Shown one piece after another: positions 11,956 to 53,528 of a stretch of DNA of 64,000 nt (the stretch's first letter is position 1; the number at the start of each line of letters is the position of its first letter). This stretch comes from Terriglobia bacterium. Its GTDB lineage: Bacteria > Acidobacteriota > Terriglobia > Terriglobales > Acidobacteriaceae. The translations under genes and the position numbers were made by a program. Location: contig JAIQFA010000011.1 in assembly GCA_020073525.1 (NCBI GenBank), positions 1-64,000 on the forward strand, read 5' to 3'. The notes beneath the pieces are model-generated. The model did not search any database and was not told the origin of the DNA. It saw nothing but the letters and a program-made list of their open reading frames with translations.

Positions 11956-12821
11956 TACGATGATTCCATCTTGCGCGCCAGTTCCCATGCCTTCGCATAT
12001 TTCCACGAGACATAGACAGCATGGTAGAGGTGCAGCAGCAGCCCTTCGCGGCCGTCGAGAAATCCGAGACGGAAAAAATAGTTGCAGATAAAAGTGGCAA
12101 GCGGCCGCACCACGATGTTGAAGAGACTGAAGCCCCGTCGGCCTTTTGCCGCCGCCATTTCCGCGCCAAGCGACGAGTAGCGGTTCATGTGGTCGATATA
12201 ATCGGCGAGCGTGGGATAGGAGTGATGGATGAGAGCGCCATGCGGTACGGCGCTGCGGGTGCCCTGGATCTTCACTGTCTCATGGACGGCTTGATCCTGA
12301 AACTTTCCCGCTTCGCGTCGAAAGAAACGCAGCTTTGAATCCGGCCAGAAGCCGCCATGACGAATCCACCGTTCGAGGAAGTAGTTCTTGCGTGGGATGA
12401 AGAAGCCGTTCAGGTCGTCTTCATCGAGTCCGATTTCCAGGCCTCGGTCTCGAAGTTCCTTAGATCGCAGGTCGTTGTCAACCGGCATCCCCTCTTTCTG
12501 CCATGTAGGAATTGCATCTAGAAGCCAGGAAATCTCTTGGACCAATTGCTCATCGGCTTCCTCATCCGCATCCAAACTCAAAATCCAATCGCCCGTCGCC
12601 TTTTCTATCGCCGAGTTCTTCTGCGCCGCATAGCCCTTCCATTCTTCAACGAAGACTTTCGCGCCAAGAGATTTCGCAATCTCGACGGTGCGGTCGGTCG
12701 AGCCCGAGTCGACGACGATGATCTCGCCTTTGCCGTCGGCCACCAGCGGCCGGACACTGGCTAGCGTGCGTCCAATGTTGGCCTCTTCATTGTGGGCGAT
12801 GACTACAACTGAGAGGATCAC
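11955..12821 (-). CDS. glycosyltransferase family 2 (LPS-core type)
   Basis: 288 residues from the GTG at 12821 (gagg just upstream). A longer frame to 13013 crosses repetitive sequence and the tolC-like terminator, so it is rejected. The GT-A fold is clear: LSVVVIAHNEEANIG, IIVVDSGSTDRTVEIA, and the metal-binding LSLDADEEAD. The C-terminal half (FRREAGKFQDQAVHE, HHSYPTLADYIDHMNRYSSL) matches the WaaE/KdtX-type group that adds a sugar to lipopolysaccharide inner core. A C-terminal hydrophobic stretch suggests membrane association. Acceptor inferred, not shown. Confidence 0.85.
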   Translation of the reverse strand: MILSVVVIAHNEEANIGRTLASVRPLVADGKGEIIVVDSGSTDRTVEIAKSLGAKVFVEEWKGYAAQKNSAIEKATGDWILSLDADEEADEQLVQEISWLLDAIPTWQKEGMPVDNDLRSKELRDRGLEIGLDEDDLNGFFIPRKNYFLERWIRHGGFWPDSKLRFFRREAGKFQDQAVHETVKIQGTRSAVPHGALIHHSYPTLADYIDHMNRYSSLGAEMAAAKGRRGFSLFNIVVRPLATFICNYFFRLGFLDGREGLLLHLYHAVYVSWKYAKAWELARKMESS

Positions 12822-12853
12822 GCGGACCTCATTGGCACAGTGGAAGAGAGCCT

Positions 12854-12893
12854 GCGGAGCTTCGCTCCGCTTGGACGGGCGGGGGCGCCCGTC
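12854..12893. repeat. paired GC-rich hairpins
   Basis: Two adjacent stems: gcggagc/gctccgc (12854-12870) and gacgggc/gcccgtc (12874-12893). They resemble the dispersed hairpins at 35238, 44633 and 46013. Confidence 0.7.
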
Positions 12894-12985
12894 CCCACAC
12901 GAGCCTTCTCCACGAAAGCCTTGCTCATCATTGAGAGCGTCACGCAGAGAGGATACGCGAGACTGGACGCTGCGCAAAAGGGAAA

Positions 12986-13007
12986 CGCCGGGCATGGTCG
13001 CCCGGCG
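12986..13007 (-). terminator. terminator of the TolC-like gene
   Basis: 8-bp stem cgccgggc / gcccggcg with a 6-base loop, 21 bases past the stop; on the minus strand it is followed by a pyrimidine run (tttcccttttg). Confidence 0.65.
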
Positions 13008-13028
13008 CTCCATCGATGCAATTACTTC

Positions 13029-15107
13029 CTACTGTTGCGGCTGCGCCGAAGGGTTCGCCGGCATTTGATCGGCTGGCCGCGCCACCACGTGCGGAATATT
13101 CGGTGCGTGCGTGACTTCACCCCGCTCGGCGTCAGCGATCAGTATGCCGGCGTGATCGAGCAAGAGCCCGATGGAGCGATCCAGTTCAACCTCTGCCTTT
13201 TCGTATGCGGCCTTGGCAGAGACGAGCGTGACTTCGGCCTGAGTCATGGCCGCCTGGTTCTGCAGTACCAGGGTTGAGGTGGATGCGCCCAGCGCATACT
13301 TCTTTTGTTCCGCGTCCAGAGATTGGCGCGCCAGATCCACGGCGGCTTGCGCGGAAGCAACGCTGGCGCGATTCTGTTGCACCCCAAACTGCGCGTTGCG
13401 CACTTCGATGCGTACCCTGTTCTCGGTCTGCTGCAACAGCAACTGGGCCTGCCGGTATTCCAATTCTCCGCGCACCTGCACGGATTGTGCCCCACGGTTG
13501 CGAATCGGGATGGTGAGCTGTAGTCCCACGCCTTTGTCAGGAGCGGTTGAGTCGACCAATTGATTGAGAGCACCGGAGTAAGAAGTCGCTGGATTCACCT
13601 GGCCACTACACGAAGTGGGGTCTACTGTGCACTGGTAGCCCGGGTTCAGAGCGCCGCCCAACCCGGTCCCCTGGTAATAGGCGAACAGGTCGAGACTCGG
13701 CTTCAGAGCACTCCGAATAGCTTTGTTGCTAATCGCGGTATTGGAAAGGTTGATCCGTGATTCAGCCAACTCCGGACGATGAGAGAGTGCGTCGTTCACT
13801 AGGTCCTGGATAGGCACGACTGGTTCCTGCGCAGGCAATTCCATAGTTGAAGTAGGAATGACTTCCGCGTCCGCTAGTGCCGGATCGACGAGCGTGCGGC
13901 TGATCGCATTCTTCATGAGCAACTGCTGCAGTTGAAGGTTGGTCAAAGCCACGGTCAGAGTTTGCTGGTTGGTGGCGACTGTGCTCTGCGCGCGCACCAC
14001 CTCGATCGGGGCCAGCGTCCCGATCTGTACCTGCTTCTGAGTGTCGGACAGGGTCTTCTGCGCGAAAGCCAACTGCTCTTGCTGCACCCTGACGTTCTCG
14101 TAGGCAAATACCAGATCCCAGTACATGTTCTCGATCTGGTCAACTGTGGTCGTGATCTGCAGGCGAAAGGCAACGTCAGAAAGTTCGCGATCGTTTTTCG
14201 TGATCTGGATAAAACGGGTGTTCGGAGCGAATCCGAAGCCTTGCAATAAGTGCTGCGTGACTTGAGCGCGAAAGTTCGTGTTGAACTGGGTCTCGAAAGC
14301 TTGAAATTGTGAGAGGGGACTGCCGGTATTCCGAGTGTTGTTGAATCCGACTGAAAGATTTGTCCCCGAGTGAAAGCCCTGCTGATAGCCAAAATTCCAA
14401 GTGGCAGTATGACTATCAACGAAAGGCGGGTTAAATGGACTTATACTTTGAGTACGGTTCTGATCCAGTTGAAACGTTCCCGTGATTACGGGGTCGAAGC
14501 TGGTGATGAGCGGTCCGCTACCCAGACTCGATCCAACCAGGCCAGCCGAGCCAGCGCCCGCGCCACCCGCCGCCACCGAGGTTCCACCCTGGCCTGAGCC
14601 AACCTGTGTGCCGAGTCCGCCCACGCCGCCACCGGGCGTGTTCTGCACGACTCCGCTGTTCACGCCGAGAATGGTGTTGGCGCCCGATTGAGCTCGCCAG
14701 ACGTCGGTATCAGCGATGTTTAAGTTGTAGCGCGCGATCGCGATATCGAGGTTGTTCTCGAGGGCCAATGCGACCGCGTCATTCATCGAAATATAAAGCT
14801 TGCCGTCGTGCATGAGTTGATCGATGCGCGGTGTGTTAGCCAGGTTCGGCGGAGCGATAAATCGAGGCTTATACGGGCCAATTGGGTTGGTAAAGGCCGA
14901 CTTCGGTTTCGAGTACTCCCTCACGTCAAACGGCTGCGATTTCGAAGGCATGGCCTGTTGGCTCTGCATCTGTGCCGACGGCGCGCTGGGCACGGATGAG
15001 GTGTCTTGGGCCCACCCCGCAGGCACGATGCTGGCGGCTAGAAAAAGGGCGGCAGCCCGCTGAAACGCAGTCAATACTCTAGAACGTTGCATTCGCATCA
15101 TCTCCAT
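13029..15107 (-). CDS. TolC-family outer-membrane efflux protein
   Basis: Up to 692 residues; several Met codons cluster at the start and the second or third may be used. A signal peptide (ALFLAASIVPAGWAQ) is followed by a Gln/Ser/Pro-rich region and then two TolC-type coiled repeats (MNDAVALALENNLDIAIARYN; then ALSHRPELAESRINLSNTAI). The C-terminal repeat ends with ALGASTSTLVLQNQAAMTQAEVTL. A Gly-rich insert near residues 155-195 is unusual and makes it longer than typical TolC (about 450-500). It should form a trimeric outer-membrane channel for a tripartite exporter, but no inner-membrane pump or adaptor is adjacent. Confidence 0.85.
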   Translation of the reverse strand: MEMMRMQRSRVLTAFQRAAALFLAASIVPAGWAQDTSSVPSAPSAQMQSQQAMPSKSQPFDVREYSKPKSAFTNPIGPYKPRFIAPPNLANTPRIDQLMHDGKLYISMNDAVALALENNLDIAIARYNLNIADTDVWRAQSGANTILGVNSGVVQNTPGGGVGGLGTQVGSGQGGTSVAAGGAGAGSAGLVGSSLGSGPLITSFDPVITGTFQLDQNRTQSISPFNPPFVDSHTATWNFGYQQGFHSGTNLSVGFNNTRNTGSPLSQFQAFETQFNTNFRAQVTQHLLQGFGFAPNTRFIQITKNDRELSDVAFRLQITTTVDQIENMYWDLVFAYENVRVQQEQLAFAQKTLSDTQKQVQIGTLAPIEVVRAQSTVATNQQTLTVALTNLQLQQLLMKNAISRTLVDPALADAEVIPTSTMELPAQEPVVPIQDLVNDALSHRPELAESRINLSNTAISNKAIRSALKPSLDLFAYYQGTGLGGALNPGYQCTVDPTSCSGQVNPATSYSGALNQLVDSTAPDKGVGLQLTIPIRNRGAQSVQVRGELEYRQAQLLLQQTENRVRIEVRNAQFGVQQNRASVASAQAAVDLARQSLDAEQKKYALGASTSTLVLQNQAAMTQAEVTLVSAKAAYEKAEVELDRSIGLLLDHAGILIADAERGEVTHAPNIPHVVARPADQMPANPSAQPQQ

Positions 15108-41759: not shown

Positions 41760-41797
41760 GAACGACTAACGACCAGCGACTAGCGACCGCTGACCAA
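41760..41797. repeat. gaacgactaacgaccagcgact word repeat, copy 3
   Basis: Contains the stop codon and last codons of the PIG-L gene ending at 41780. Confidence 0.75.
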
Positions 41798-44581
41798 ATT
41801 CACAAACAACCGCAGCGCCCCCGGAACGCCCGCCGGCAGTTGCCGGAAGAAGGCATATCCCGTGTAGATATACGTTCCCTTCCCATAGTGCGCCACCAGC
41901 AGTCCGCCCTTCTGCTCGCCTTCGCCCGGATCATGCGATTCGAGCAACGGGGTAAAGTTCGAGTCCCACTGCGACATGAAGTACAGCCCGCGCTCCTGCA
42001 CCCATCCCGCGAAATCCTTCTGAGTAATTTCGTTCGGAGAATGGAAGATCGCGTTTGCTGGATCGAGAATCACAACCGGCGCATCTTCCACCGAAACCCG
42101 CGCCCGGCTCAGAGTAGCCGGAAACGGCGTGAACTTCCCGGAATTGAAGTCTCCCGCTGCGGCGTTGTATCCCACGGTGTTGTACTGCACCACCAGGCGC
42201 CCGCCTGCCTGCACAAAATCGAGCAGCCTCTTGTTATTGGCGATCACATCTTTTTGCGTGTCGTAAGCCCGAATCCCCAGCACGATCGTCCGATACCGGC
42301 TCAAATCTTCTGCACCAAGCTTCTCAGCCGGAATCAAAGTCACGTCCATACCGATCTGCTGCAGCACGGCAGGAATCTCATCCCCCGCGCCCATAATGTA
42401 CCCGACCTTCAGATCCTTCGGGACCTTTACATCCACGACGCTGACCCGCTGCACCGCCGGCTGGTAGTAATAAAACGTTCCCAGATCTTCGCGCGTGACG
42501 ACCGAATAGCCTTCTTCGTAATTACGATGTCCGCTCTTCAGCGAGGCCCGAATTTCCCGTCGTCCTTCCGTCCGATTCCCTGGATGCACGGTGAAATCCG
42601 CACTCTGCCTCTCGCCGCGCTCATGAAACTCCAGTTGCTTTTCCGCTGGTTCGGCGCGCCAAGTCTCGGGCACCTCGACTCGCAGCGCTCCTTCATCCTT
42701 CTCTGGATCTCCCGCCCAGTGTGTCGCCTGCAGTGTCTTCGAATCCAGATTGCCGGACACATCGATCTTGACATTCGACTGGGGGCCGTCCTCTGTTGGG
42801 ATCACCTGCTCACCCGGGTCCAGCATGACGGAAAAAGCTGGCGCCACCGCCAAGGGACGCTCAGCAATCGCGCCGGAAGCGTCTTTGTATCTCACCATGC
42901 ACACGGCGGTAGTCGCACCCGCTCCGGCCTTGCCGATCATGCCCAGCGCCTTCACCGGAGGCGGCGGAAAGGGAAGCCCTTGATACTGCAGGTCGTCAAC
43001 TGTGTTGAGCGCTTCGGTTTCAGGATCGTTCCGGTGCCAGTATGGCCTCGTGGGCTGGGCTGTCGGAGGAACAAAAACCAGGAATCGCGTGGTGACGGCG
43101 TTCTTCCCCTCTGTCATTCTCCCCAGAACCTTGGAATTCCATCCTTGCGGGAGCAACAAATCGATGCCGGCGCTTGTGGTTGAGGGGTCTCCTGCAGAGA
43201 GCGTGGCGGTGACTGGAAACGTCCGCCCCCGCACCGCCATGAAGGCGTCTTCCGGACTCGTTCCCACCGGCGCGTCGACCACAACGTGCAGAGTCACGCC
43301 CCTCGCGAGTCCAAGCGCCTTCGCGATCTCGCTCGCCTTCGCCTGCAGTGAAGGCAGGATGCTATTTTTTCCCTGAGTCGAGAGCTCCGATTCCTCGATC
43401 TGCTTGCTAACCTTCTGAATCAGGAAACTGCTGACGGCTAGAGGATCCGCCGCCGCTACCGGATCGCTCTCCGCGGCAACCGTAGCCCCATCGATCTTTG
43501 TCTTAATCTCAACTAACTCACCCCGCAGCCACGGTACCTTCTTTTCTTCCTCCCCGAGTCGCGATGCCAGCCCGGGCAGCGTCGTATCGATCCCGTCAAA
43601 GAAATCCAACTCGTGCCCATCCTTATCTTTATCTTTCGTAGACTGCACCACGGAATCCACGAGTTTGTAATGGGTGAAGCGGTCGCCCGGCTCGACCGTC
43701 CAGTTCGCCGCTCCTTGTGAAAGTTGGTGGCGCAGTCCCTTCATCGCAAACTGAATGTAGGACGTGCCCAGCACCGCGTCATTCGCCCCAGTGTTCAGCC
43801 GCACCGTATAGTTCGCCGCGTCACAAGTGTTCGAGAAGAACCCGCACACATTCCCGATGTACAACTTCTTCGGCTGCCAAGGCTCCAGTCCTTCTTTCAG
43901 TTGCTCAGGAAATCGCTTCGGATCGCCCGCCGCCCGAAATGCCTCTTTCGTCAATATCGCCGACGCCTGGTGATGCCCGTGCCCGTCGCGATCCGTACCC
44001 GAAAATCGTGCAATCAGCACATCCGGACGAAAGGTCCGAATCACCCGCACCATATCGGCGAGCGCGATATCGTGCCCTTGCCACTTCTGAAATGTTTCTT
44101 CGGGAGTTTTCGAATATCCAAAATCGGCCACGCGCGAAAACCGCTGCTCGACACCGTAATACCGATCCGAGGCCAGCAATTCCAAAGTCCGCAGCACGCC
44201 CAGCGCGTCGAACAGATTGCTGCCCAGTTTGTTCTGTCCGCCCTCGCCGCGCGTCAGCGTCATCAGCAACGTCGAGACGCCTTTCCCGCGCGACTCCAGC
44301 GTCAACATGCCGCCATCCTCATCATCCGGATGCGCCGTGACCTGCATCAGCCGTCCGGTTGTCTGCAGCTTTCGCAGCACGAGCTTCAACCCCGCCGCAC
44401 CAGTTTCCTGAGGGAGCGGTTCATAATAATGATCGACGACATGATCGACCTTGGCCGCCTCGACATGTTGTGCCCCGGCAGAGATCGCGGTTGACGCCAA
44501 CAAGATCAGCACCATTGCTGCCGCGAACCGGTCGCGCACAAATCCAGACCCGTACTGCCTCAACATTTCAAACATCTCCAT
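41780..44581 (-). CDS. large exported PIG-L/LmbE-family deacetylase
   Basis: About 933 residues; start chosen among several Met codons (44581, or later). A signal peptide (AAMVLILLASTAISAGAQ) precedes a PIG-L (N-acetylglucosaminyl deacetylase) domain with the zinc motif TAHPDDEDGG (H84, D86, D87) and HGHHQAS near 180. The long remainder includes Ig-like beta regions and, near the end, a class I glutamine-amidotransferase-like module (VGYIMGAGDEIPAVLQQIG ... YRTIVLGIRAYD). Likely a periplasmic or secreted deacetylase of amino sugars or thiol conjugates. Size and extra domains are far beyond bare LmbE (about 230). Confidence 0.8.
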   Translation of the reverse strand: MEMFEMLRQYGSGFVRDRFAAAMVLILLASTAISAGAQHVEAAKVDHVVDHYYEPLPQETGAAGLKLVLRKLQTTGRLMQVTAHPDDEDGGMLTLESRGKGVSTLLMTLTRGEGGQNKLGSNLFDALGVLRTLELLASDRYYGVEQRFSRVADFGYSKTPEETFQKWQGHDIALADMVRVIRTFRPDVLIARFSGTDRDGHGHHQASAILTKEAFRAAGDPKRFPEQLKEGLEPWQPKKLYIGNVCGFFSNTCDAANYTVRLNTGANDAVLGTSYIQFAMKGLRHQLSQGAANWTVEPGDRFTHYKLVDSVVQSTKDKDKDGHELDFFDGIDTTLPGLASRLGEEEKKVPWLRGELVEIKTKIDGATVAAESDPVAAADPLAVSSFLIQKVSKQIEESELSTQGKNSILPSLQAKASEIAKALGLARGVTLHVVVDAPVGTSPEDAFMAVRGRTFPVTATLSAGDPSTTSAGIDLLLPQGWNSKVLGRMTEGKNAVTTRFLVFVPPTAQPTRPYWHRNDPETEALNTVDDLQYQGLPFPPPPVKALGMIGKAGAGATTAVCMVRYKDASGAIAERPLAVAPAFSVMLDPGEQVIPTEDGPQSNVKIDVSGNLDSKTLQATHWAGDPEKDEGALRVEVPETWRAEPAEKQLEFHERGERQSADFTVHPGNRTEGRREIRASLKSGHRNYEEGYSVVTREDLGTFYYYQPAVQRVSVVDVKVPKDLKVGYIMGAGDEIPAVLQQIGMDVTLIPAEKLGAEDLSRYRTIVLGIRAYDTQKDVIANNKRLLDFVQAGGRLVVQYNTVGYNAAAGDFNSGKFTPFPATLSRARVSVEDAPVVILDPANAIFHSPNEITQKDFAGWVQERGLYFMSQWDSNFTPLLESHDPGEGEQKGGLLVAHYGKGTYIYTGYAFFRQLPAGVPGALRLFVNLVSGR

Positions 44582-44632
44582 CTGATGGATTTTCCCCAAA
44601 GAAAGGAGCAAATATATTCCTTGTGAGTGTAG

Positions 44633-44652
44633 CGCGGGCGCCCTCGCCCGCG
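44633..44652. repeat. cgcgggc hairpin
   Basis: Arms cgcgggc-type / gcccgcg around gccct, in the gap upstream of the PIG-L gene. Confidence 0.6.
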
Positions 44653-44798
44653 AAGGCGTAATGGTAGGCGGTCATTGCGGTCGGGTCAACCAAGTTTGGC
44701 AGGTCAAATATGCAGGCGAGATGGAGAAAGCGAAAACAGAAGGGTGCTCCATGCATTCGTGTTCTGTGCAAATGAGTGGGAGGCGGCAATCATGATCA

Positions 44799-45983
44799 CT
44801 AACGAACCAGCGCCGCCGACGATCCGACCCATTTCAGATTCTTGTTCTGATCCACACCCATCATCAGCCCGCGGCCCATGCGCACGATCGTCAGCACCGG
44901 GACTAACTCATCGAGCCACACATACATAATCCGCAGTTCGACTTTGGTCGCGCCGTGCGGCGTTTCCACGATCGGAGTGAAACTCAGCCGCTCCTGCAAA
45001 ATAAATTCGCCGCGTTGTGCCGCGGGAATCGCGTCAATGTCGGCGCGCGAAGGCGCAATCACCACGCCCAACCCGGCAAACGAATACAACGGCTTGAGCA
45101 CAAAATTCTCCAGATCCGACGGCACTTCCGGCAGTTGATCCAAAAACCACGTCCGTGGTACCGACGGATGCTTCAAGTAAGGAATCGAATATTTGCTGAT
45201 CCGGAAATACCAGTTCGGATGTCCCGCCCACTCCACATCCAGTTCATCGCGAAAATCAAACGGCAAAGCCACGCCCTTGCGTTCCAGTTCATCCACGATA
45301 GTGCGGTTATAAATCCGCTCAATCGGAACTCGCTTGCCCGCCTCTTCGTAAAAGAGCCGCTGCCCATCTTTGTGGATATTGGTGATGCAAACGGTGCGAA
45401 TGCCAAGCAACTTCTCCGTCAGCAGAAAATCCGGACGCGTCTTCTGCTCCTCGGGATGCACCTCCATCAGCACTACATGAACCGGATCATGCCCCGCAAC
45501 AATCGCGTCCTGCAAAAGCCGTTTGTAGGAAGGCGACTCGAGCCCGCTCAAGAAGTAGCGAAGGGAAGGATCGAGCCCGAATGCATCGATGTAAGCCTGC
45601 GCCAGCACCGCCTGATAAGCATAAAGAGAAGGGAAGGCCTGCAACTCGACCAACTTCGGTTGTAACTCGCCCACCGCATCCCGCACCAACCCAAAGTCCA
45701 CCTGAATAAACATCGGATGCGCCGCTTCATTCGGAACCCGAAACTCCGCCGGAATCGAGGCCTCCGAGCGCGCCCGATATTCGGGATTGTCCACCAGTTG
45801 CCGGATCAGCGCCTTCCCATCCTCCCCCATGCGCTTAACCAGCGCATCCGGAAAGAAGCAAGGCGTCTCGCAAAGCGCGAACGGCACGTCCATCCCGCAG
45901 CGCGAAGTCATCTCGCGGCGCAATAGCTCATATTTTTCAGAAGTGAATCGCGAGTTGAAGTCTTGCCGGTAGGAAGGCATCAT
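44799..45983 (-). CDS. ATP-grasp-like protein of the ligase cluster
   Basis: 394 residues, no signal peptide. The C-terminal half has ATP-grasp-like features: LENFVLKPLYSFAGLGVVIAP (nucleotide-contact Lys and glycine loop, about 285-305), LQERLSFTPIVETPHG (about 325-340) and VELRIMYVWLDEL (metal-side acidic/Arg strand). The N-terminal half (MFIQVDFGLVRDAVG, LVELQAFPSLYAYQA) resembles the pre-ATP-grasp part of glutathionylspermidine-synthase-like proteins. Expected to form an amide between a carboxylate and an amine using ATP, but this is inference; a catalytically weakened member is possible. It is the last of a run of five minus-strand genes with amide-bond chemistry. Confidence 0.6.
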   Translation of the reverse strand: MMPSYRQDFNSRFTSEKYELLRREMTSRCGMDVPFALCETPCFFPDALVKRMGEDGKALIRQLVDNPEYRARSEASIPAEFRVPNEAAHPMFIQVDFGLVRDAVGELQPKLVELQAFPSLYAYQAVLAQAYIDAFGLDPSLRYFLSGLESPSYKRLLQDAIVAGHDPVHVVLMEVHPEEQKTRPDFLLTEKLLGIRTVCITNIHKDGQRLFYEEAGKRVPIERIYNRTIVDELERKGVALPFDFRDELDVEWAGHPNWYFRISKYSIPYLKHPSVPRTWFLDQLPEVPSDLENFVLKPLYSFAGLGVVIAPSRADIDAIPAAQRGEFILQERLSFTPIVETPHGATKVELRIMYVWLDELVPVLTIVRMGRGLMMGVDQNKNLKWVGSSAALVR

Positions 45984-46012
45984 AGAAGTCGTGGATGTTG
46001 ATGGGAGTGTGG

Positions 46013-46033
46013 GGACGGGCGCCTCGCCCGTCC
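46013..46033. repeat. ggacgggc hairpin
   Basis: 8-bp arms ggacgggc / gcccgtcc with a 5-base loop between two cluster genes; may affect transcript levels. Confidence 0.6.
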
Positions 46034-46091
46034 ACGCAGAGCGAAGCTCGGCTACTCCTCGGCGCTCTCCGCGTCGAGGCGGTGAAAAGCC

Positions 46092-47144
46092 CTAAGCCTC
46101 AATCAAAAACTGCCCGCCCCGCATAATCTGCTCGCCGTCCACCCAGATATCGAAATTCCGCCCCACCACGTCAATGTGCGTCGACGAATACCACTCCGCT
46201 CCCGTGTGCGCCCCATAGGGATTCCCGAATGCAATGTGGATCCCAGGGTATTTCTCGTCCTGCAGAATCTCGCCGATCACGTCTTTCAATTCAATGTTCG
46301 TGCCAATGGCGAACTCGCCCACCCGGTTACTGTTCTCATCGGTATGTGTGTAGGCCCAGAAATCGTCTTTCAATTCCTTGTTCGCCGAGTGCGCCTCGAT
46401 CAGACGATTCTCCTTCACCTGGATGGTCAGCGGGTTCGCCTTCAAATCGCCAAACTTCGCGCACAAATAATCGCCCACTACGCCGTCAATCACGAAGGTC
46501 CCGTTTACCTCACCGGGACTAGTGAATACTTCGCCGCCCGGAAGGTTCCCCCACTTTTCCGTGCTGATAATTCCGCTCGTCTTCACCCACCTGTAATTCG
46601 GATTCAAATCCACCACCAGGTCCGTACCCGCGGCTGTCTTGGCGCGAATTTGTTTCGCCTTGGTGACTATCTCCAGTACTTTCAGGCTCAGCCGGTCCAC
46701 CTTCAAGAAGTCGGCACGCATGCCTTCGAGCATGATGCGCTTGTTGATGTTGACCATGTGGGCGTGCCGGATCCTTCTTCGGTTCACTACATCCGTCATC
46801 TGCATGCGCGACTTCAGTTCATTAGTCTGCGCCTGCACCGCGAAAATGCTGACCTGGCTGGTCTCCAGATCCTCCGTGATCGCCAGCGGCAAATCCGTCA
46901 GCGGACGCGTCGCCACGTCCTCCAGCACCCACGTCTGGTACCGGCAGCCGACTTCTTCTAGTTCGCGCACGATGGCGGCGGCGATCTCCAGGCTCACTTC
47001 GTCGGTAATGACCGTGACTTTTTCCGAAGGCTGCACCCGCAGGCACACGCGTACCGCATTCCGCGCCCCCTGCGAGAGTTGCGGATCGAAAGTCATCTGA
47101 TTCAGTTGTCGATTGGATGGTTCTGCAGTTTTCATCAAACTCAT
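46092..47144 (-). CDS. M29-like metallo-aminopeptidase
   Basis: 350 residues. The pattern fits the M29 (AmpS/AmpT) dinuclear-zinc aminopeptidases: E205 in LPGGEVFTSP, E277 in RVGEFAIGTN, H303 in GIHIAFGNPYGAH and H323/D325 in STHIDVV are candidate metal ligands with the right order and similar spacing. M29 enzymes remove N-terminal residues from short peptides. Its ATG shares one base with the TGA of the upstream GCS2-type ligase (TGATG), so the two are translationally coupled. That links peptide trimming to amide synthesis in the same pathway, by inference. Slightly shorter than typical M29 (about 400). Confidence 0.75.
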   Translation of the reverse strand: MSLMKTAEPSNRQLNQMTFDPQLSQGARNAVRVCLRVQPSEKVTVITDEVSLEIAAAIVRELEEVGCRYQTWVLEDVATRPLTDLPLAITEDLETSQVSIFAVQAQTNELKSRMQMTDVVNRRRIRHAHMVNINKRIMLEGMRADFLKVDRLSLKVLEIVTKAKQIRAKTAAGTDLVVDLNPNYRWVKTSGIISTEKWGNLPGGEVFTSPGEVNGTFVIDGVVGDYLCAKFGDLKANPLTIQVKENRLIEAHSANKELKDDFWAYTHTDENSNRVGEFAIGTNIELKDVIGEILQDEKYPGIHIAFGNPYGAHTGAEWYSSTHIDVVGRNFDIWVDGEQIMRGGQFLIEA

Positions 47145-48283
47145 CAGACGGCTCGGGCGGTGGGCGCGCTATCTGCCTCATCCACGCCCACCTCAGTCTC
47201 CTCAATGATGTAATCCATTACCGCTTTCATGTCGCCGGTTTCGTGGAACACCTGCAACTGCCGGTCTGCACCCGTGCCCATCTTCATGATTTCGCGGATG
47301 TACTCTACTTCTTCTCGGCAATTCAGTTCGTCCAGCACGTCATCCACAAATTCCAGATACTCTTCGATCAGATCGCGTTCCGGAACCTCCATCTGCTTGC
47401 CGAAGTCGATCAGTTTCCCATTAATTCCATAGCGCGCCGCTCGCCACTTGTTTTCCATCAGCAGCGACTTCCGGTACAGCCGGAATCCCTGGTTCTGCGA
47501 GTACAACTTGTAGAGCTTTGCCACCGTCGCCTGGATCAGCGCCGCCAAGGCAATGGTTTCGTCCACCCGCATCGGCAGATCACACACCCGGAATTCCAGC
47601 GTGTCGAAGAATGGATGCGGCCGGATGTCCCACCAGATCTTCTTCGCGTTATCGATCGAATTCGTCTTCACCAGCAGCTTGACGTAATTTTCGTACTCGC
47701 CCCAACTCGGAAAATAATCCGGCAGGTTCGTGCGTGGAAACTTGTCGAACACCTTGCAGCGGTACGATTTCAGTCCCGTATCCATTCCCAGCCAGAATGG
47801 GGAATTTGTCGAAAGCGCCAGCAGGTGCGGCACAAAATACCGCGCATGATTCATCAGGTGGATCAGCGTCTCCCGATCCTCGATTCCGACGTGAACGTGC
47901 AGACCGAAAATCAGGTTCGCTCGCGCCACCAGCTGCATATCCTGAACAATATTCTTGTAGCGCTCGCCCGGTGTAACTTCCTGCATACGCCAATCCGCGA
48001 ATGGGTGCGTGGCCGCCGCCGCCAGTCGCAGCCCGTTCTCCCGCGACAATCGGATCATGTGCCGCCGCAAACTCTTCAGTTCTTCCCGCGCTTCCTTAAT
48101 ATTGGCGCAAACCGACGTGCCCACTTCCACCACCGATTGGTGCATCTCGGTCTTGACCCGTTCCTGCAGGACCAATTTGCCTTTCTCGATAATCTCGGCG
48201 TGGATGTGCGACCGAAGATCCCGGCTCTCCGGATCGACTGTCTGATATTCCTCTTCGATTCCCAGCGTGAATGTAGGTTTCAT
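47144..48283 (-). CDS. carboxylate-amine ligase, GCS2 (YbdK) family
   Basis: 379 residues from the ATG at 48283 (MKPTFTLGIEEEYQ is the classic GCS2 start); the frame upstream of it is unsupported. GCS2 is the plant/bacterial-type glutamate-cysteine-ligase-like fold: TLGIEEEYQTVDPES binds metal/ATP, HQSVVEVGTSVC and FGLHVHVGIEDRETLIHLMNHAR follow, and RPHPFFDTLEFRVCDLPMRVDETI is the C-terminal signature. It should join a carboxyl group (glutamate-like) to an amine. The real substrate could differ from gamma-glutamylcysteine, as YbdK-type members are only weakly GCL-active. Coupled to the aminopeptidase downstream. Confidence 0.85.
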   Translation of the reverse strand: MKPTFTLGIEEEYQTVDPESRDLRSHIHAEIIEKGKLVLQERVKTEMHQSVVEVGTSVCANIKEAREELKSLRRHMIRLSRENGLRLAAAATHPFADWRMQEVTPGERYKNIVQDMQLVARANLIFGLHVHVGIEDRETLIHLMNHARYFVPHLLALSTNSPFWLGMDTGLKSYRCKVFDKFPRTNLPDYFPSWGEYENYVKLLVKTNSIDNAKKIWWDIRPHPFFDTLEFRVCDLPMRVDETIALAALIQATVAKLYKLYSQNQGFRLYRKSLLMENKWRAARYGINGKLIDFGKQMEVPERDLIEEYLEFVDDVLDELNCREEVEYIREIMKMGTGADRQLQVFHETGDMKAVMDYIIEETEVGVDEADSAPTARAV

Positions 48284-48414
48284 CGCGGCATCCCAAGCTG
48301 CCAGGCAGGGAGGGCTTCTGGCAGAAAGTCCACTTAGTATACCCAATGACCAGCTTGCGTAGGGACAGCCGCCCTGGCCTCTCCATCCTGGCTTACCGAA
48401 TATCTGGGTTAGCT

Positions 48415-48462
48415 TCGGTGTTCCTCCGTGTCCCTCTGTGTACCCAGTGGTTCAAGGTTTTT
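48415..48462. repeat. ttcctccgtgtccctctgtg repeat
   Basis: Further copy of the ctctgtg word family ending ggttcaaggttttt, just before (downstream of) the ATP-grasp stop codon. Confidence 0.75.
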
Positions 48463-48485
48463 GTGGGCGTCTGATCAGAACTCAC

Positions 48486-49475
48486 TTAGGTTGAAGCTTT
48501 CTTTCGCGTCTTGGGTGTCCGAATCTCCACCCACTTCGGCCCATTCAAAAACGCCGCCCAGCGCAACTCCGACACCGGATTCTCTCCGCCGAGCGCCTTC
48601 TTCACGGCCATCTCCGCCACCGCATCCACCACCCACTCAAAATTCTCCTGCCCCACCGACGTGACCTCTGCATCCGGTGCCGGATTCATGAAGTCAATCG
48701 CGTATGGAACGCCACCTTCCACTGCAAACTCCACCGTATTCAGGTCGTAGCCGAGCGCGCGGCACAAAGCCAGCGCATCTTTCTCGATGCGTTGCTTCAA
48801 CGCAGTCCCCGGCTGCGGGTTTCCCTTCACATAGCGCTCCTGGTGCGGAGCCCTGGGATCGTACTTCATGATATGCACTTTCTCCTGGCCTACAACGTAG
48901 CAGCGGTAATAGTCCTCAAACTCCACCCCGTGCTGCAGCGTCATGCAGAGATCGCCCGTCTGGTTGTAGTTATGGAAGAATTCCTCCGGAGAATGCACCT
49001 TGTACACGTGCTTCCAGCCGCCGCCCGCGTAAGGTTTCAAAAACGCCGGAAACCCGACATAGGAAAATACTTCTTCCCAATTCAGCGGATACATCAAGTT
49101 GCGCATCGACTTATCGGTAGTATCCGGCGGATGCTCGTGATGTGGCAAAATCACCGTAGGCGGAATCGCCACCCCCATCTTGTGTGCCAGCGCATAATTA
49201 AAAAACTTGTCATCCGCTGTCCACCAGAACGGATTGTTGATCACAATCGTCCCCTGCAGCATCGCGTTCTTCAAATACGCCCGGTAGAAGGGAATGTCCT
49301 GCGAAATCCGGTCGATGATTACGTCGTACTTCTTCGGCTCATCCATGCGGATGCCGCCAATCTTTACAAATTCAGCCGTTATCCCCTCAACCTTCATCCC
49401 GTTGATCTTCTCGACCAAAGCCGGCGGAAACGTATTCTCCATCCCAAAAATAATTCCGATTTTCTTGTTTGCCAT
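48486..49475 (-). CDS. ATP-grasp ligase
   Basis: 329 residues. N-terminal MANKKIGIIFGMENTFPPAL and YDVIIDRISQDIPFYRAYLK form a pre-ATP-grasp domain of the RimK/LysX style. The ATP-grasp core follows: FPAFLKPYAGGGWKHVYKV (Lys and flexible glycine loop, about 140-158), LCMTLQHGVEFEDYYRCYVVGQEKVHIMKYD (175-205), and the metal site NTVEFAVEGGVPYAIDFMNPAPDAE (about 262-286, with E and N ligands). It should activate a carboxylate as acyl phosphate for ligation to an amine. The second ligase beside GCS2 in this run. Confidence 0.82.
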   Translation of the reverse strand: MANKKIGIIFGMENTFPPALVEKINGMKVEGITAEFVKIGGIRMDEPKKYDVIIDRISQDIPFYRAYLKNAMLQGTIVINNPFWWTADDKFFNYALAHKMGVAIPPTVILPHHEHPPDTTDKSMRNLMYPLNWEEVFSYVGFPAFLKPYAGGGWKHVYKVHSPEEFFHNYNQTGDLCMTLQHGVEFEDYYRCYVVGQEKVHIMKYDPRAPHQERYVKGNPQPGTALKQRIEKDALALCRALGYDLNTVEFAVEGGVPYAIDFMNPAPDAEVTSVGQENFEWVVDAVAEMAVKKALGGENPVSELRWAAFLNGPKWVEIRTPKTRKKAST

Positions 49476-49529
49476 AAAATCAATATCCCTCTTTCAGCAA
49501 TAATCTAAATCTCTCCGAGAATCACGTAG

Positions 49530-49604
49530 GGACAGCCGCCTCGGCTGTCCGCCGGGCGGAGCCCGGCTAGATCTAGCGACGAACGACCAGTGACCAACGA
49601 CCGC
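49530..49604. repeat. hairpins plus cgaacgaccagtgaccaacg word repeat
   Basis: Two hairpins (gacagccg/cggctgtc 49530-49549; gccgggc/gcccggc 49551-49567) are followed by a further ten-base-word repeat (49574-49604) that ends at the esterase stop codon (49607-49609). Confidence 0.75.
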
Positions 49605-49606
49605 CT

Positions 49607-50317
49607 CTAAAAATACTTCCCTGCCATCCGCTGCCACAACGGCCAATCATGCTTGCTGTTGTCCCCGTAAATATCCAGCCAATGCGGAATCCCCTTACCG
49701 TCCAGAATCGCAGCCATCTTCACATTCGCGTCCAGGCACATATCCCAGTCCGACGATCCCAGCACGATCTTCATTTGCCGGTATCGGCTCAGAAACCACT
49801 CATCGCCGGTCCGCGGTAAATAATCCGGAGGATTGTTGAAGTAGACATTGTCGTCATAATAGCCGTCGAGGAAGCTCTTGATGTCGAACGATCCGCTCAT
49901 GGTCACGCAAGCCGAGACCAGATCGGGATGGCGCACGGCAAGATTCAGCGCGTGGTAGCCGCCAAAGCTGCAGCCCGTCACCGCGATCTGCGGGGCCCAG
50001 TTCTTCCACTTTAAATGGGGCAGAAATTCGTTGATCACGTAGCGCTCGTACTGAACATGTCGCCAGATCCGCGCTCCTGGATGCACGCTCTTGTTGTACC
50101 AACTCTCGCCATCGACGCTGTCCACGCAGAATACCTGGATCTCCCCCGCGTCCAGCTTCCCGGCCAGCGTGCGGATCATCCCTGCATCTTCGTACTCAAA
50201 AAAACGTCCCTGCGAGGACGGGAAAACGAGGATCGGCTGCCCGCCGTGCCCAAACACGAGCGACTCCATGTCGCGTCCCAATTCGTGGCTGTATTGTTTG
50301 TGATATTCGCGGTTCAT
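49607..50317 (-). CDS. alpha/beta-hydrolase esterase of the ligase cluster
   Basis: 236 residues, no signal peptide. Esterase-D/Fes-like fold: nucleophile Ser in VTGCSFGGYHAL (about 115-124), an aspartate candidate near SSDWDMCLD, and the histidine in GDNSKHDWPLWQ (C-terminal). The N-terminus (YHKQYSHELGRDMESLVFGHGGQPILVFPSSQ) is typical of bacterial putative esterases. In a cluster with ligases it could transfer or release an acyl group or hydrolyse an ester or thioester intermediate. Its place at the upstream end suggests it is the first gene of the transcription unit. Confidence 0.75.
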   Translation of the reverse strand: MNREYHKQYSHELGRDMESLVFGHGGQPILVFPSSQGRFFEYEDAGMIRTLAGKLDAGEIQVFCVDSVDGESWYNKSVHPGARIWRHVQYERYVINEFLPHLKWKNWAPQIAVTGCSFGGYHALNLAVRHPDLVSACVTMSGSFDIKSFLDGYYDDNVYFNNPPDYLPRTGDEWFLSRYRQMKIVLGSSDWDMCLDANVKMAAILDGKGIPHWLDIYGDNSKHDWPLWQRMAGKYF

Positions 50318-50480
50318 GCGCGCGAGGATTGTAACCGAACTGCGTGATCTTCGGCACCCGCCGGAGGCTCATTTGTAGTCCAGCTTCATAAGCCAACAAG
50401 GACATGAAGTCGCAAAACCTGCGGACAGCTTCGTGACCTTGGGGCTCTTGGTAGTGAGTGAATTTGGGCTTGCGTTGTCT

Positions 50481-53400
50481 CTACTGCGTCTCGGATCGTG
50501 GATTGATTCCCAAGTGCTTCAGCTTCGATTGCAGCGTGGTCCGCTTCAATCCCAACCGCATGGCTGCCCCGCGTAGCCCGCCAATCTGCCCGCGGCTCTC
50601 GCGCAAAGCCCGCAGAATGTGCTCGCGTTCGGCCGCTTCTAGACTTTCATCCGCGGCTTCCTCCTCCATGGTTGTGCTGATCGCCCGCAGTTCGCTTAAC
50701 GGCGACACCAGCACCGAACCTTGTGTCAGAATCACGGAACGCTCGATGAAGTTTTCCAGCTCCCGCACATTCCCCGGCCACTCCCACCCCTTGAGTTCGT
50801 CGATGGTCCTCTTCGGGATGCTGGTGATCGTCTTTTTCATTCGCTTGGCAAACTTCTGCACAAAATGTTCGACCAGCAACTGGATGTCTTCCCGCCGTTC
50901 CCGTAACGGGGGCACGCGGATCGGAAACACGTTCAGACGGTAATATAAGTCGCTCCGGAACTCGTTCTCGCGTACGCTATCCGCCAAGTCGCGGTTGGTG
51001 GCTGCTATCAAACGAAAGTCCATCTTCAAAGTATGAGTTCCGCCCAGCCGTTCGAACTCATGATCCTGCAAGACTCGTAGCAGTTTCGGTTGCAGGGCCA
51101 AAGAAATCTCCCCGATCTCGTCCAGAAACAGCGTGCCCTTGTCCGCCAGTTCGAGTCGTCCAATTTTCTTGTTGACCGCTCCGGTGAAAGCGCCCTTCTC
51201 ATTGCCGAACAACTCGCTCTCCAGCAGTCCCGACGGAATCGCCGCGCAATTCATTTTGATGAAGCTGCTGTTCGCGCGATGACTCAAGCGATGGATCGCC
51301 CGCGCCACCAGCTCCTTGCCTGTCCCCGTCTCGCCCAGCAATAGCGCCGTAGCATCGCTGGCGGCCACTTTTCCCACGTTTTCCATGACGGTTTGCAAGG
51401 CCTTGCTTTGCCCGATGATTTCCCCGAACCCCAGGGTGGTGTCGATTTCCTGTTCGAGATAGAGCTTTTCCTCCGTGAGCCTTCTCTTGGCTTCGCGTAA
51501 AGCTTCGCTTGCCTCCCGGAGATCGGTGACATCCATACTGGCGCCGGTGAGTCCAATGACTGCGCCCGTTGCGTCCAAAACCGGTTCAATCGTTGTATCA
51601 AGGTAGTACTTCTTGCCGCGGTCTGTGATCTGTAGCTCATGACGCGCTCCCACCCCGGTTTCCAGCACCCGCCTCCGGACTTCCGTGGTGCGCTCAACCT
51701 CCTCAGGGTCGAAGATGTCGTTCGTCGTTTTTCCCAGCAGTTCGCTCACCGGCCTGGAAAGCTGCGGATTGTATATCGAGGTGTAGCGCAAGTCCCGGTC
51801 TTGGCTGAACATGGCAATCGGAGAATTCTTCAGCGCCACCCGGAACCGTTCCTCGCTTTGCCGAAGTGCCTCCTCCGCCCGCTTGCGAGCAGTGATGTCG
51901 ATGGCCGCTGCGACAACCCCCCTCACCTTCCCATCTTCGCCCAGCAGCGGCACAACATTGGTCAGCTCCCGCCGTTCCGTTCCGTCTTCGAATACCATCG
52001 TCATGGGTATGTCGTACTCCGAACGTCCTGTTGCGGCAGCTCGTTGCATCGGCAACTCTTCCACCGGAAGCTCGATTCCGTCCCGCAGAAACCGCACTCG
52101 GGGCTTCTCGCCCGCGAGGGCGCTCAACGATGCGTTGGCACCAGGTTCCAGGCGCAGATGCTCGCGTCCCATCCGATTTGTTGTCACGTGTCGGCACTCC
52201 GCGTCATGGGCAATCATCACCGGAATCGGGAGCACATCCAGTACCGTTTCCAGTTCCTTCGCTCTTGCCCGCTCGCGGGCTTCACTTTCCCGCAACGCCT
52301 CCTCTGCCAGCTTCTGCTCTGTGATGTCGCGCAAAACACACGCCACGCGATCGATTCCTGTCGGACCCTCCACCGGTAGGTATGTGATCGATACCTCCCT
52401 CTCCCCCATCCCCGGATAATTGTTCTTTAGTTCGTATCTGACGACCTTCCCTCGGAAACACTCATCCAGTCTTTCCTTGATTACCGTTTCAAACACTTTC
52501 GGATTCATTACCTCCGCGACCACGTGCCCGACGACCTGTTCTTCCGTCATGCCCCAGTAGCGCAAGAACGCCCGATTCACGATCACATACCGGTAGTCCC
52601 GGTTCACCACCAGGATCATATCCTCCAGGTTCTCCACGACTCGCTCGTACTGTCGCAGTCTCACTTCCGCCCGCTTTCGCGCCGTGATATCGCGCGAAAC
52701 AGCTATGCAATACTTCCGGTCCAGTTGCACCTGGCGCAGATTTACCTCGACCGGGAATGTTGTTCCATCTTTCCGCTGGTGCACTCTCTCGAAGGTTGCA
52801 CATCCCGACTTCCGCAGTTGATCATCCACTTGCGCGCACGAGGTCGCGTCAACGCTTGGATCGATATCCAAGGAAGTCATCGACAACAATTCTTCCCGGC
52901 TGTAGCCAAGCTCCAGGCACGCCTTCTCGTTCACATCAAGGAATCGTCGAGTCTCAGGATCGATGACTTCGATCGCATCGTTCGAGTGCTCCAGTAGGGT
53001 CCGGAATAGCGTCAGGCCCTGGAGCATTCGTTCCTGTTCCCGCGAGGTCTTCAGCAGCTCTTCGTTGCTGGCGCGCAACGCTTTCTCGGCCCGCACGCGG
53101 TCCGTGACGTCGTGCGCAATTCCCCGTACGAGCGGTGCCTCCACTCCCTCGGTGCGAAGCGTGTTGTGGTACTCCCAGATCCGCTGCTCTCCCGATCGCG
53201 TCATCACGGCGATCAGCCCGCGAGACTCTCCTGTGTGCTGGATCTCATCCAGATAGGCATCGAATTGTTCGCGGAATTGCGGATCGAGGAAATCGCGCAT
53301 CGGTGTGCGCATCATTTCTTCTACGCTGTAACCAAGGACACGCACGGCTCCGCGATTGACCGACAGGAGTCGACCCTCAAGGTCGTGGATACACAGGAGG

Positions 53401-53528
53401 TCGTGGCTGTGCTCGGCTAGATCGCGATACCAGTCTTCGTTTTGCTCCCAGACCCGTCGGATTGGGTTCCACGCAACTGGCGAATCCGCCGGAGTGGCGA
53501 ACTTCGGTACTTCAGGGTGCGATGCCAT
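50481..53528 (-). CDS. PAS-rich sigma-54-dependent transcriptional activator
   Basis: 1015 residues with five PAS-like segments (about 30-145, 170-290, 297-410, 425-550 and 555-675), a coiled-coil linker, an AAA+ domain (about 700-940) and a Fis-type helix-turn-helix (966-1012). The ATPase has Walker A GETGTGKE (732-739), the sigma-54 contact loop GAFTGA (779-784) and Walker B TLFLDEIGE (799-807). It should sense a small-molecule, redox or light cue through PAS and open sigma-54 promoters. No receiver or kinase domain is present. It lies 163 bases upstream of the esterase, same strand, suggesting control of the ligase cluster; no convincing -24/-12 element was seen. Confidence 0.9.
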   Translation of the reverse strand: MASHPEVPKFATPADSPVAWNPIRRVWEQNEDWYRDLAEHSHDLLCIHDLEGRLLSVNRGAVRVLGYSVEEMMRTPMRDFLDPQFREQFDAYLDEIQHTGESRGLIAVMTRSGEQRIWEYHNTLRTEGVEAPLVRGIAHDVTDRVRAEKALRASNEELLKTSREQERMLQGLTLFRTLLEHSNDAIEVIDPETRRFLDVNEKACLELGYSREELLSMTSLDIDPSVDATSCAQVDDQLRKSGCATFERVHQRKDGTTFPVEVNLRQVQLDRKYCIAVSRDITARKRAEVRLRQYERVVENLEDMILVVNRDYRYVIVNRAFLRYWGMTEEQVVGHVVAEVMNPKVFETVIKERLDECFRGKVVRYELKNNYPGMGEREVSITYLPVEGPTGIDRVACVLRDITEQKLAEEALRESEARERARAKELETVLDVLPIPVMIAHDAECRHVTTNRMGREHLRLEPGANASLSALAGEKPRVRFLRDGIELPVEELPMQRAAATGRSEYDIPMTMVFEDGTERRELTNVVPLLGEDGKVRGVVAAAIDITARKRAEEALRQSEERFRVALKNSPIAMFSQDRDLRYTSIYNPQLSRPVSELLGKTTNDIFDPEEVERTTEVRRRVLETGVGARHELQITDRGKKYYLDTTIEPVLDATGAVIGLTGASMDVTDLREASEALREAKRRLTEEKLYLEQEIDTTLGFGEIIGQSKALQTVMENVGKVAASDATALLLGETGTGKELVARAIHRLSHRANSSFIKMNCAAIPSGLLESELFGNEKGAFTGAVNKKIGRLELADKGTLFLDEIGEISLALQPKLLRVLQDHEFERLGGTHTLKMDFRLIAATNRDLADSVRENEFRSDLYYRLNVFPIRVPPLRERREDIQLLVEHFVQKFAKRMKKTITSIPKRTIDELKGWEWPGNVRELENFIERSVILTQGSVLVSPLSELRAISTTMEEEAADESLEAAEREHILRALRESRGQIGGLRGAAMRLGLKRTTLQSKLKHLGINPRSETQ

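Follow-up and report, generated by a model that had tools for sequence, protein, structure and literature searches.

Stepwise amide bond formation by an ATP-grasp ligase, without a nonribosomal peptide synthetase (NRPS), underlies the biosynthesis of E-64 (ligase Cp1B) and dapdiamide, according to the available part of the source (PMC12568646). A GCS2-family ligase near a ligase of the glutathione synthetase (GSS)/GspS fold is found in glutathione and glutathionylspermidine synthesis (GCS2-type GshA, GSS, GspS, YgiC/YjfC), and an ATP-grasp protein accompanies a peptidase-type gene in the Alpha-E/ATP-grasp/transglutaminase/Anbu operon, in the available part of its description (PMC5666114). Here, we analyzed a locus with likenesses to these systems, in which five consecutive genes encode, from 5′ to 3′ on the minus strand, an α/β hydrolase (EST), an ATP-grasp protein (AG2), a GCS2 carboxylate-amine ligase (GCS2), an M29-family metallopeptidase (M29), and a second ATP-grasp protein (AG1). 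The locus lies in a stretch of 64,000 nucleotides (the window) from contig C89 (JAIQFA010000011.1) of a Terriglobia bacterium, whose 6.0 Mb draft genome comprises 210 contigs; its nearest named relatives by AG2 protein identity (89–94%) are metagenome-assembled genomes of Acidobacteriaceae (L076–L080). The locus differs from the E-64 and dapdiamide systems, as far as the available part of the source describes them (PMC12568646), in having GCS2 and a RimK/Ddl-like enzyme, in having no oxygenase among the five proteins, and in its host organisms. It differs from glutathione and glutathionylspermidine synthesis in having a third ligase and two hydrolases, in a GCS2 that scores under the TIGR02048 cut-off, and in a genome that carries BshC. 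The locus is probably not an Alpha-E/Anbu system. No Alpha-E, transglutaminase, or Anbu was seen among the scanned window and neighbor proteins, which did not include all open reading frames (ORFs) of the window, and no linked Alpha-E system was found in a genome-wide search that covered Alpha-E, not transglutaminase or Anbu; the genome's Alpha-E gene (G000:C157:6643–7569; PF04168, E = 1.1e-86) lies on contig C157 instead of C89.

The preliminary description had proposed the five minus-strand genes (44799–50317) as a unit, to be judged by the conservation of their order in related genomes. All five ORFs are present and uninterrupted, and their order proved to be conserved. An alignment of the AG2 family (29 sequences) was scanned against GTDB genome contigs, which gave at least 592 stretches, at least 575 of them encoding a relative; the best 80 of these loci were fetched, and their contents were determined by tblastn with the window proteins. 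All five genes occurred in one order on one strand in 25 of the 80 loci, including that of Bryocella elongata DSM 22489 (L118), and in 42 loci two to four of them were present, collinear in 40 and not in 2. GCS2 was found in 57 loci, EST in 48, M29 in 47, and AG1 in 36; these counts are lower bounds, many loci ending at contig ends. Outside Acidobacteriota, the order EST-AG2-GCS2-AG1 was observed in L146 and L148 (Ignavibacteriota) and AG2-GCS2-AG1 in L152 (Chlorobiota); M29 was not found in these three short stretches (4.4–6.1 kb). The aligned genes of L105, a compact locus, are separated by 23, 61, 20, and −5 bp. As the five-gene order recurs in other species, it is not due to chance. Among the 88 AG2 proteins of a phylogenetic tree, 63 rows labelled Acidobacteriota made up one side of a branch (96/83). 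Nine further rows of this phylum lay outside the 63: seven in one clade (99/99), split from them by Ignavibacteriota/Chlorobiota rows, and two on a long root branch. The AG2 family is either old or transferred, and this tree does not decide between the two.

Furthermore, 119 Acidobacteriota genomes were searched for each protein, with E-value cut-offs of 1e-10 for AG2, AG1, and BshC, 1e-25 for EST, 1e-40 for M29, and below 1e-120 for GCS2 and CPG, another permuted ATP-grasp family that occurs at loci with AG2. The strictest cut-off left out six genomes with weaker GCS2 matches, all AG2-negative, and nine with weaker CPG-like matches, one AG2-positive and eight AG2-negative. AG2 was present in 35 genomes from 19 family-level groups; four of these genomes (G008, G015, G033, and G059) have only a distant AG2 relative (27–29% identity) and were kept among the 35. 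EST was found in 31 of the 35 AG2-positive genomes but in only 1 of the 84 AG2-negative genomes. The corresponding counts were 13/35 and 0/84 for AG1, 17/35 and 0/84 for CPG, 28/35 and 0/84 for either of these two, 25/35 and 7/84 for GCS2 of this subfamily, and 7/35 and 0/84 for M29. Of the 35 carriers, 24 had AG2, GCS2, and AG1 or CPG together, and GCS2 was never combined with AG1 or CPG in an AG2-negative genome (0/84). Within family f1, EST was present in all seven AG2-positive genomes and in none of four AG2-negative genomes, with both states occurring inside genus g4. The best AG2 and EST matches were on different contigs in 15 of the 31 genomes, many being draft assemblies; in G096, which has two contigs in all, AG2 is on one and EST on the other. 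Of the four AG2-positive genomes lacking EST, G052 does have a 34% EST match, which is truncated by the contig end (L066). These data showed that AG2 and EST form a near-constant pair, that a permuted ATP-grasp protein and GCS2 are frequent, and that M29 is restricted. The proposed unit thus held for the order of its genes, not for equal constancy of its members.

The families named in the preliminary description were confirmed, GCS2, M29, and EST exceeding Pfam cut-offs and AG1 and AG2 being recognized as ATP-grasp proteins from predicted models. GCS2 scored 225.8 bits against PF04107 (cut-off 21) and 560.8 bits against the NF010039 equivalog model (cut-off 371), but only 72.5 bits against the cyanobacterial glutamate-cysteine ligase model TIGR02048 (cut-off 249.05). 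Many of its polar residues, such as E11, E13, H94, and H130, are retained in 56 of 56 sequences. Enzymes of the GCS2 family usually activate the side chain of glutamate.

AG2 had no Pfam match at E 0.1. Its model has a predicted local distance difference test score (pLDDT) of 87.9 and an ATP-grasp fold, and resembled Ddl, ArgX/LysX, RimK, and graspetide ligases in a Foldseek search (50 matches listed of 545 at E ≤ 0.001), with E-values of about 1e-13 to solved ATP-grasp enzymes and template modeling (TM) scores of 0.53–0.66 by query length. The matches listed include two macrocyclases (MdnC and AMdnB) and the ligase PsnB, and Ddl, ArgX, and RimK score equally well or better. Since AG2 matches all these enzymes, its fold alone does not reveal its substrate. 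AG2 shares the fold and the conserved ATP-grasp residues of the RimK/LysX/ArgX/Ddl ligases; however, it is only 11–18% identical to the 50 listed matches and scores 26.5 bits against the RimK family model (TIGR00768; cut-off 143.4). Residues R191, D206, N246, D261, and N264 are conserved in 29 of 29 sequences, and K147 and E249 in 28 of 29. The fold, together with the conserved lysine K147, D261, and N264, places AG2 in the ATP-grasp superfamily, D261 and N264 being putative metal-site residues. Enzymes of the AG2 fold add amino acids. No match to AG2 was found among plasmids. In four further loci (L072–L075), distant AG2 relatives share their surroundings with protein family F15, which has the motif AWSAGAM in three loci and AWSGGAM in one, presumably akin to that of S51 peptidases; the one member scanned had no Pfam match. 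An esterase-like protein is also present in three of these four loci.

AG1 matched an ATP-grasp family only below the cut-off (17.6 vs 31.4 bits), and no credible PDB relative was found by sequence. Its model (pLDDT 92.4) supports the fold of a circularly permuted ATP-grasp protein of the GSS/GspS type: all 18 PDB chains at E ≤ 0.001 were GSS, GSS-like nematode proteins, GspS, YgiC/YjfC, or Cp1B, with moderate TM scores by query length (0.47–0.65), and the Cp1B structure 9cjn matched with an E-value of 1.5e-10. The preliminary description had suggested structure prediction of both ATP-grasp proteins and had counted two ATP-grasp ligases. Both do have ATP-grasp folds in the models, that of AG2 being RimK/Ddl-like; however, AG1 is of the permuted type, so that the locus combines three ligases of three architectures. 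A comparison of AG1 and AG2 profiles showed no relation (hhalign probability 0.3). In AG1, D96, E113, Q115, K297, and E349 are conserved in 30 of 30 sequences. The metal-site residues of Cp1B are E163 and N165 in the available part of its description (PMC12568646); AG1 has E113-x-Q115 in 30 of 30 sequences instead of E-x-N, and CPG has N130 in 11 of 11. According to the same text, the AG1-fold enzymes Cp1B and YgiC/YjfC join small acids, peptides, and amines, linking short peptides or acids to amino acids or amines (PMC12568646).

The AG1 profile aligned with that of CPG over 209 columns (hhalign probability 83, E = 8.7e-6). One of two CPG members scanned exceeded the PF04174 cut-off, and both fell just under that of PF14403. 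The order AG2-CPG-GCS2 was observed in L052, L055, L061, and L066, from the same phylum as the window, and in L153. AG1 and CPG occurred in the same genome in only 2 of 28 carriers of either, and they are probably alternatives for one ligation step. The alignments comprised 28 relatives from 37 fetched loci (A1), 29 of 34 AG1 relatives (A2), and 10 of 12 CPG members plus that of L153 (A3). A separate CPG-like branch (E = 1e-66 to 1e-71) was seen in AG2-negative genomes of family f3 (G002, G018, G032, G058, G100, G109, and G118). In L153, a PspA/IM30 gene (12572–13231) follows AG2-CPG-GCS2; yjfC of E. coli also lies near a PspA-like gene.

EST scored 34.9 bits against PF00756 (cut-off 22), and its putative catalytic triad is nearly invariant (S117 in 47/48, D192 in 46/48, and H223 in 47/48 sequences). 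It weakly matched a solved S-formylglutathione hydrolase (E = 0.0026), a resemblance at the superfamily level. Homologues of EST were found in 14 plasmid records (38–43% identity). Five plasmid loci were examined, and in three an ATP-grasp-type gene lies directly upstream of the EST homologue, recognized by annotation and Pfam in Peptoclostridium and Pararhizobium and by reading the ORF only in Sinorhizobium; no ATP-grasp gene was seen beside the homologue in the Thiodictyon and Rhizobium jaguaris loci. M29 scored 69.1 bits against PF02073 (cut-off 27), best over residues 162–328. E205, E277, H303, H323, and D325, which we take to be the metal ligands of this family, are identical in every sequence aligned there (46–48 of 48), and together with the Pfam score they place M29 in the family. 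An alignment with AmpS spans only the first three of these five putative ligands, and M29 also matches the dioxygenase 7cn3 (E = 0.00095).

The positions of the five genes are given in Table 1. The GCS2 start was corrected: the listed ORF opens at a TTG codon at 48346, and the part matching NF010039 begins at the ATG codon at 48283. A single base (47144) is common to the GCS2 stop and the M29 start, and the remaining spacers are 131, 202, and 108 bp long. Sigma-70-like sites were found at chance level (3 vs 3.3 expected), with no promoter-like signal exceeding chance; terminator-like sites exceeded it (17 vs 5.5 expected), 15 of the 17 lying inside genes. No structured RNA reached its gathering score in 44600–50700. 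The M29-AG1 spacer contains, at 46007–46053, a dispersed repeat, about 46 bp long and containing the palindrome GGACGGGCG...CGCCCGTCC, for which at least 41 further matches with 84–96% identity were found in the genome (40 of 244 candidates scored). A 21-bp repeat (90% identical) is present at 48358–48378 in the AG2-GCS2 spacer and at 49525–49545 in the EST-AG2 spacer, and is possibly part of another dispersed element.

Table 1. Genes of the five-gene locus, from upstream to downstream.
Gene	Description	Position	Strand	Basis
EST	α/β hydrolase, PF00756 esterase superfamily, 236 aa, most upstream gene	49607..50317	-	Pfam, motif GCSFGG
AG2	ATP-grasp, RimK/LysX/ArgX/Ddl-like fold, 329 aa, no Pfam family	48486..49475	-	Model, conserved residues
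GCS2	Carboxylate-amine ligase, NF010039 (PRK13515), YbdK type	47144..48283	-	Pfam and NCBIfam
M29	M29-family metallopeptidase, 350 aa	46092..47144	-	Pfam, conserved residues
AG1	Circularly permuted ATP-grasp, glutathione-synthetase/GspS/YgiC/Cp1B-like fold, 394 aa	44799..45983	-	Model, profile alignment

Upstream of EST, on the same strand, the window encodes a sigma-54 activator with multiple PAS domains (1015 aa, 50481–53528), and similar genes are located upstream of EST in L077 and L078. Control of the EST operon by this activator was considered and rejected: 50300–50500 held no site that fits the scanned consensus with up to two mismatches, and sigma-54-type sites over the whole window were at chance level (31 vs 28.9 expected). 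An NtrC gene was likewise rejected as a core member, being present in 4 of 80 loci and upstream of EST in 2 of them. Downstream of AG1 lies a gene for a PIG-L-domain protein with an NEW3-type domain (943 aa, 41780–44611). A PIG-L gene is also found downstream of AG1 in L076, L078, L080, and L081, with a gene family that has a kinase domain (scanned in L084) in between; it was rejected as a core gene, since only 8 of the 80 loci have it, 4 of them downstream of AG1. A second esterase gene (F5, PF00756; the member at L087:7156–8028 was scanned) is present in 17 of the loci L076–L155, mostly divergent from EST. An aldo/keto reductase gene (F6, PF00248 in the scanned member from L130) adjoins M29 in nine loci (L098, L103, L110, L113, L117, L121, L123, L125, and L130, the last with a small opposite ORF before M29) and lies near AG2 in L136. 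DinB_2 genes (F11) are found upstream of AG2 or between EST and AG2 in eight loci (L125, L128, L129, L130, L132, L136, L141, and L143); the only member scanned, from L136, had a sub-cut-off match to mycothiol-S-transferase. With no neighbor family constant across the 80 loci, there is no constant pointer to the substrate.

The preliminary description had noted the lack of an obvious peptide precursor gene, and the spacers of the 25 full loci likewise yielded none. Among 798 small ORFs from these spacers and 600-bp flanks, in-operon families were common to at most two loci. The largest cluster comprised six loci upstream of EST, all with the divergent F5 esterase there, and is probably an antisense frame of that gene; a second comprised four loci downstream of AG1, all with gene family F9 there. 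No carrier-protein family was conserved in the neighborhoods, proteins of fewer than 50 aa being covered in spacers and near flanks only.

Taken together, our leaning, held with modest confidence, is that the five genes form one NRPS-independent module for a small peptide-like metabolite. A small molecule fits best because the locus combines three architecturally different ligases with two hydrolases, has no conserved gene for a peptide, and is flanked by variable enzymes, and the enzyme families support the earlier idea of ATP-driven amide bond formation. Given the reaction types of GCS2 and of the AG1 and AG2 folds, the product would most likely be a γ-glutamyl pseudo-tri- or tetrapeptide, a detail in which we place less confidence than in a small-molecule pathway as a whole. 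GCS2 would couple glutamate or a similar acid, by way of an acyl-phosphate, with an amine or amino acid, and AG1 (GSS/GspS type) and AG2 (RimK/Ddl type) would next add one residue each. EST, as the dedicated hydrolase of AG2, may remove an ester or acyl group from the substrate or product or clear mis-ligated product, and M29 may recycle the product from its N-terminus in the lineages that carry it. We also consider, tentatively, a wider picture, in which an undescribed family of small γ-glutamyl pseudo-peptides would be made by a three-ligase module with a near-obligate hydrolase, and other phyla would use the same general unit of ligase and hydrolase, built on another ATP-grasp family.

Several observations weigh against a small-molecule module. 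The best 80 loci are biased to close relatives; AG2 is the only one of the five genes in 13 of them, and besides the five no neighbor family occurs in more than 17. In 3 of the 25 full loci (L079, L090, and L095) the AG1 match runs into the contig end, and L095 has 6.5 kb between AG2 and GCS2. Related genomes were counted without phylogenetic correction, and because relatedness inflates the tests, Fisher p-values were not taken as proof. At looser thresholds, CPG was found in 18/35 AG2-positive and 8/84 AG2-negative genomes, and GCS2 in 25/35 and 13/84. The mutual exclusion of AG1 and CPG may mirror lineages only, and with Q115 where Cp1B and CPG have N, the metal site of AG1 may differ.

Other readings account for parts of these data. 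In protein or peptide tagging, a RimK-like AG2 would append residues to the terminus of a protein; this tag would be extended or branched by GCS2 and AG1 and removed by M29. RimK and LysX/ArgX, which act on proteins or carrier proteins, are indeed among the listed closest folds of AG2, and 47 of the 80 loci contain an M29 gene; however, 28 of the 35 AG2-positive genomes lack M29 (E ≤ 1e-40), the close folds of AG1 work on small peptides, small acids, and amines, and the neighborhoods have no conserved carrier-protein family at the coverage given above, so that tagging appears unlikely. Graspetide maturation by an ATP-grasp ligase, a route to ribosomally synthesized and post-translationally modified peptides (RiPPs), would account for MdnC, AMdnB, and PsnB among the listed matches of AG2. 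Nevertheless, Ddl, ArgX, and RimK score equally well or better, and the spacers and flanks of the 25 full loci revealed no precursor gene next to that of the ATP-grasp protein, small-ORF families inside the operon reaching two loci at most; we regard this reading as very unlikely. That household genes lie together by accident is scarcely credible: the spacers of 202, 131, and 108 bp and the lack of a promoter-like signal exceeding chance would allow it, but the order is kept in 25 of 80 loci and the genes co-occur even across contigs.

A pathway for a low-molecular-weight thiol or its conjugates would have GCS2 make γ-glutamylcysteine, AG1 act as glutathione synthetase, and EST and DinB_2 act on conjugates. 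The family of GCS2 and the fold of AG1 resemble the glutathione ligases, and the weak S-formylglutathione hydrolase match of EST and the DinB_2 genes in eight loci, with the one mycothiol-S-transferase match below the cut-off, point the same way. However, GCS2 is far under the TIGR02048 cut-off, and the likeness of EST is at the superfamily level. Moreover, BshC, a bacillithiol enzyme family, is present in the genome of the window and in 31 of 35 AG2-positive genomes, against 32 of 84 AG2-negative ones, an association without an evident link; a replacement thiol is therefore not needed, which weakens the idea that the pathway replaces bacillithiol and leaves a thiol product improbable. Little credence is likewise given to the utilization or detoxification of amines or amino acids, in which the ligases would γ-glutamylate incoming amines and the hydrolases would free the products. 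Peptide-polyamine ligases (YgiC/YjfC) have the fold of AG1, M29-like proteins include the dioxygenase 7cn3, and catabolic-looking neighbors occur in a few loci (an aromatic amino acid lyase in L154 and an RraA-like family in three loci), but simple glutamylation needs no two further ligases, and besides the five genes no neighbor family is present in more than 17 of the 80 loci.

Clusters of amidoligase genes are already known as a kind of locus, and Iyer et al. reportedly surveyed them in 2009, possibly including this neighborhood. No description of the five-gene module, of the exchange between AG1 and CPG, or of the pairing of AG2 with EST was found in the literature, as judged by partial title lists. 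Acidobacteriota are common soil bacteria whose chemistry is little known. The presence of AG2 in 19 family-level groups and of three ligase kinds in 24 of 35 carriers suggests that the small peptide-like metabolite proposed here would be valuable to these bacteria, and the tight AG2-EST pairing gives a clear prediction for an orphan family of hydrolases. A new cofactor-like peptide, should the product be one, would escape genome mining based on NRPS or RiPP genes.

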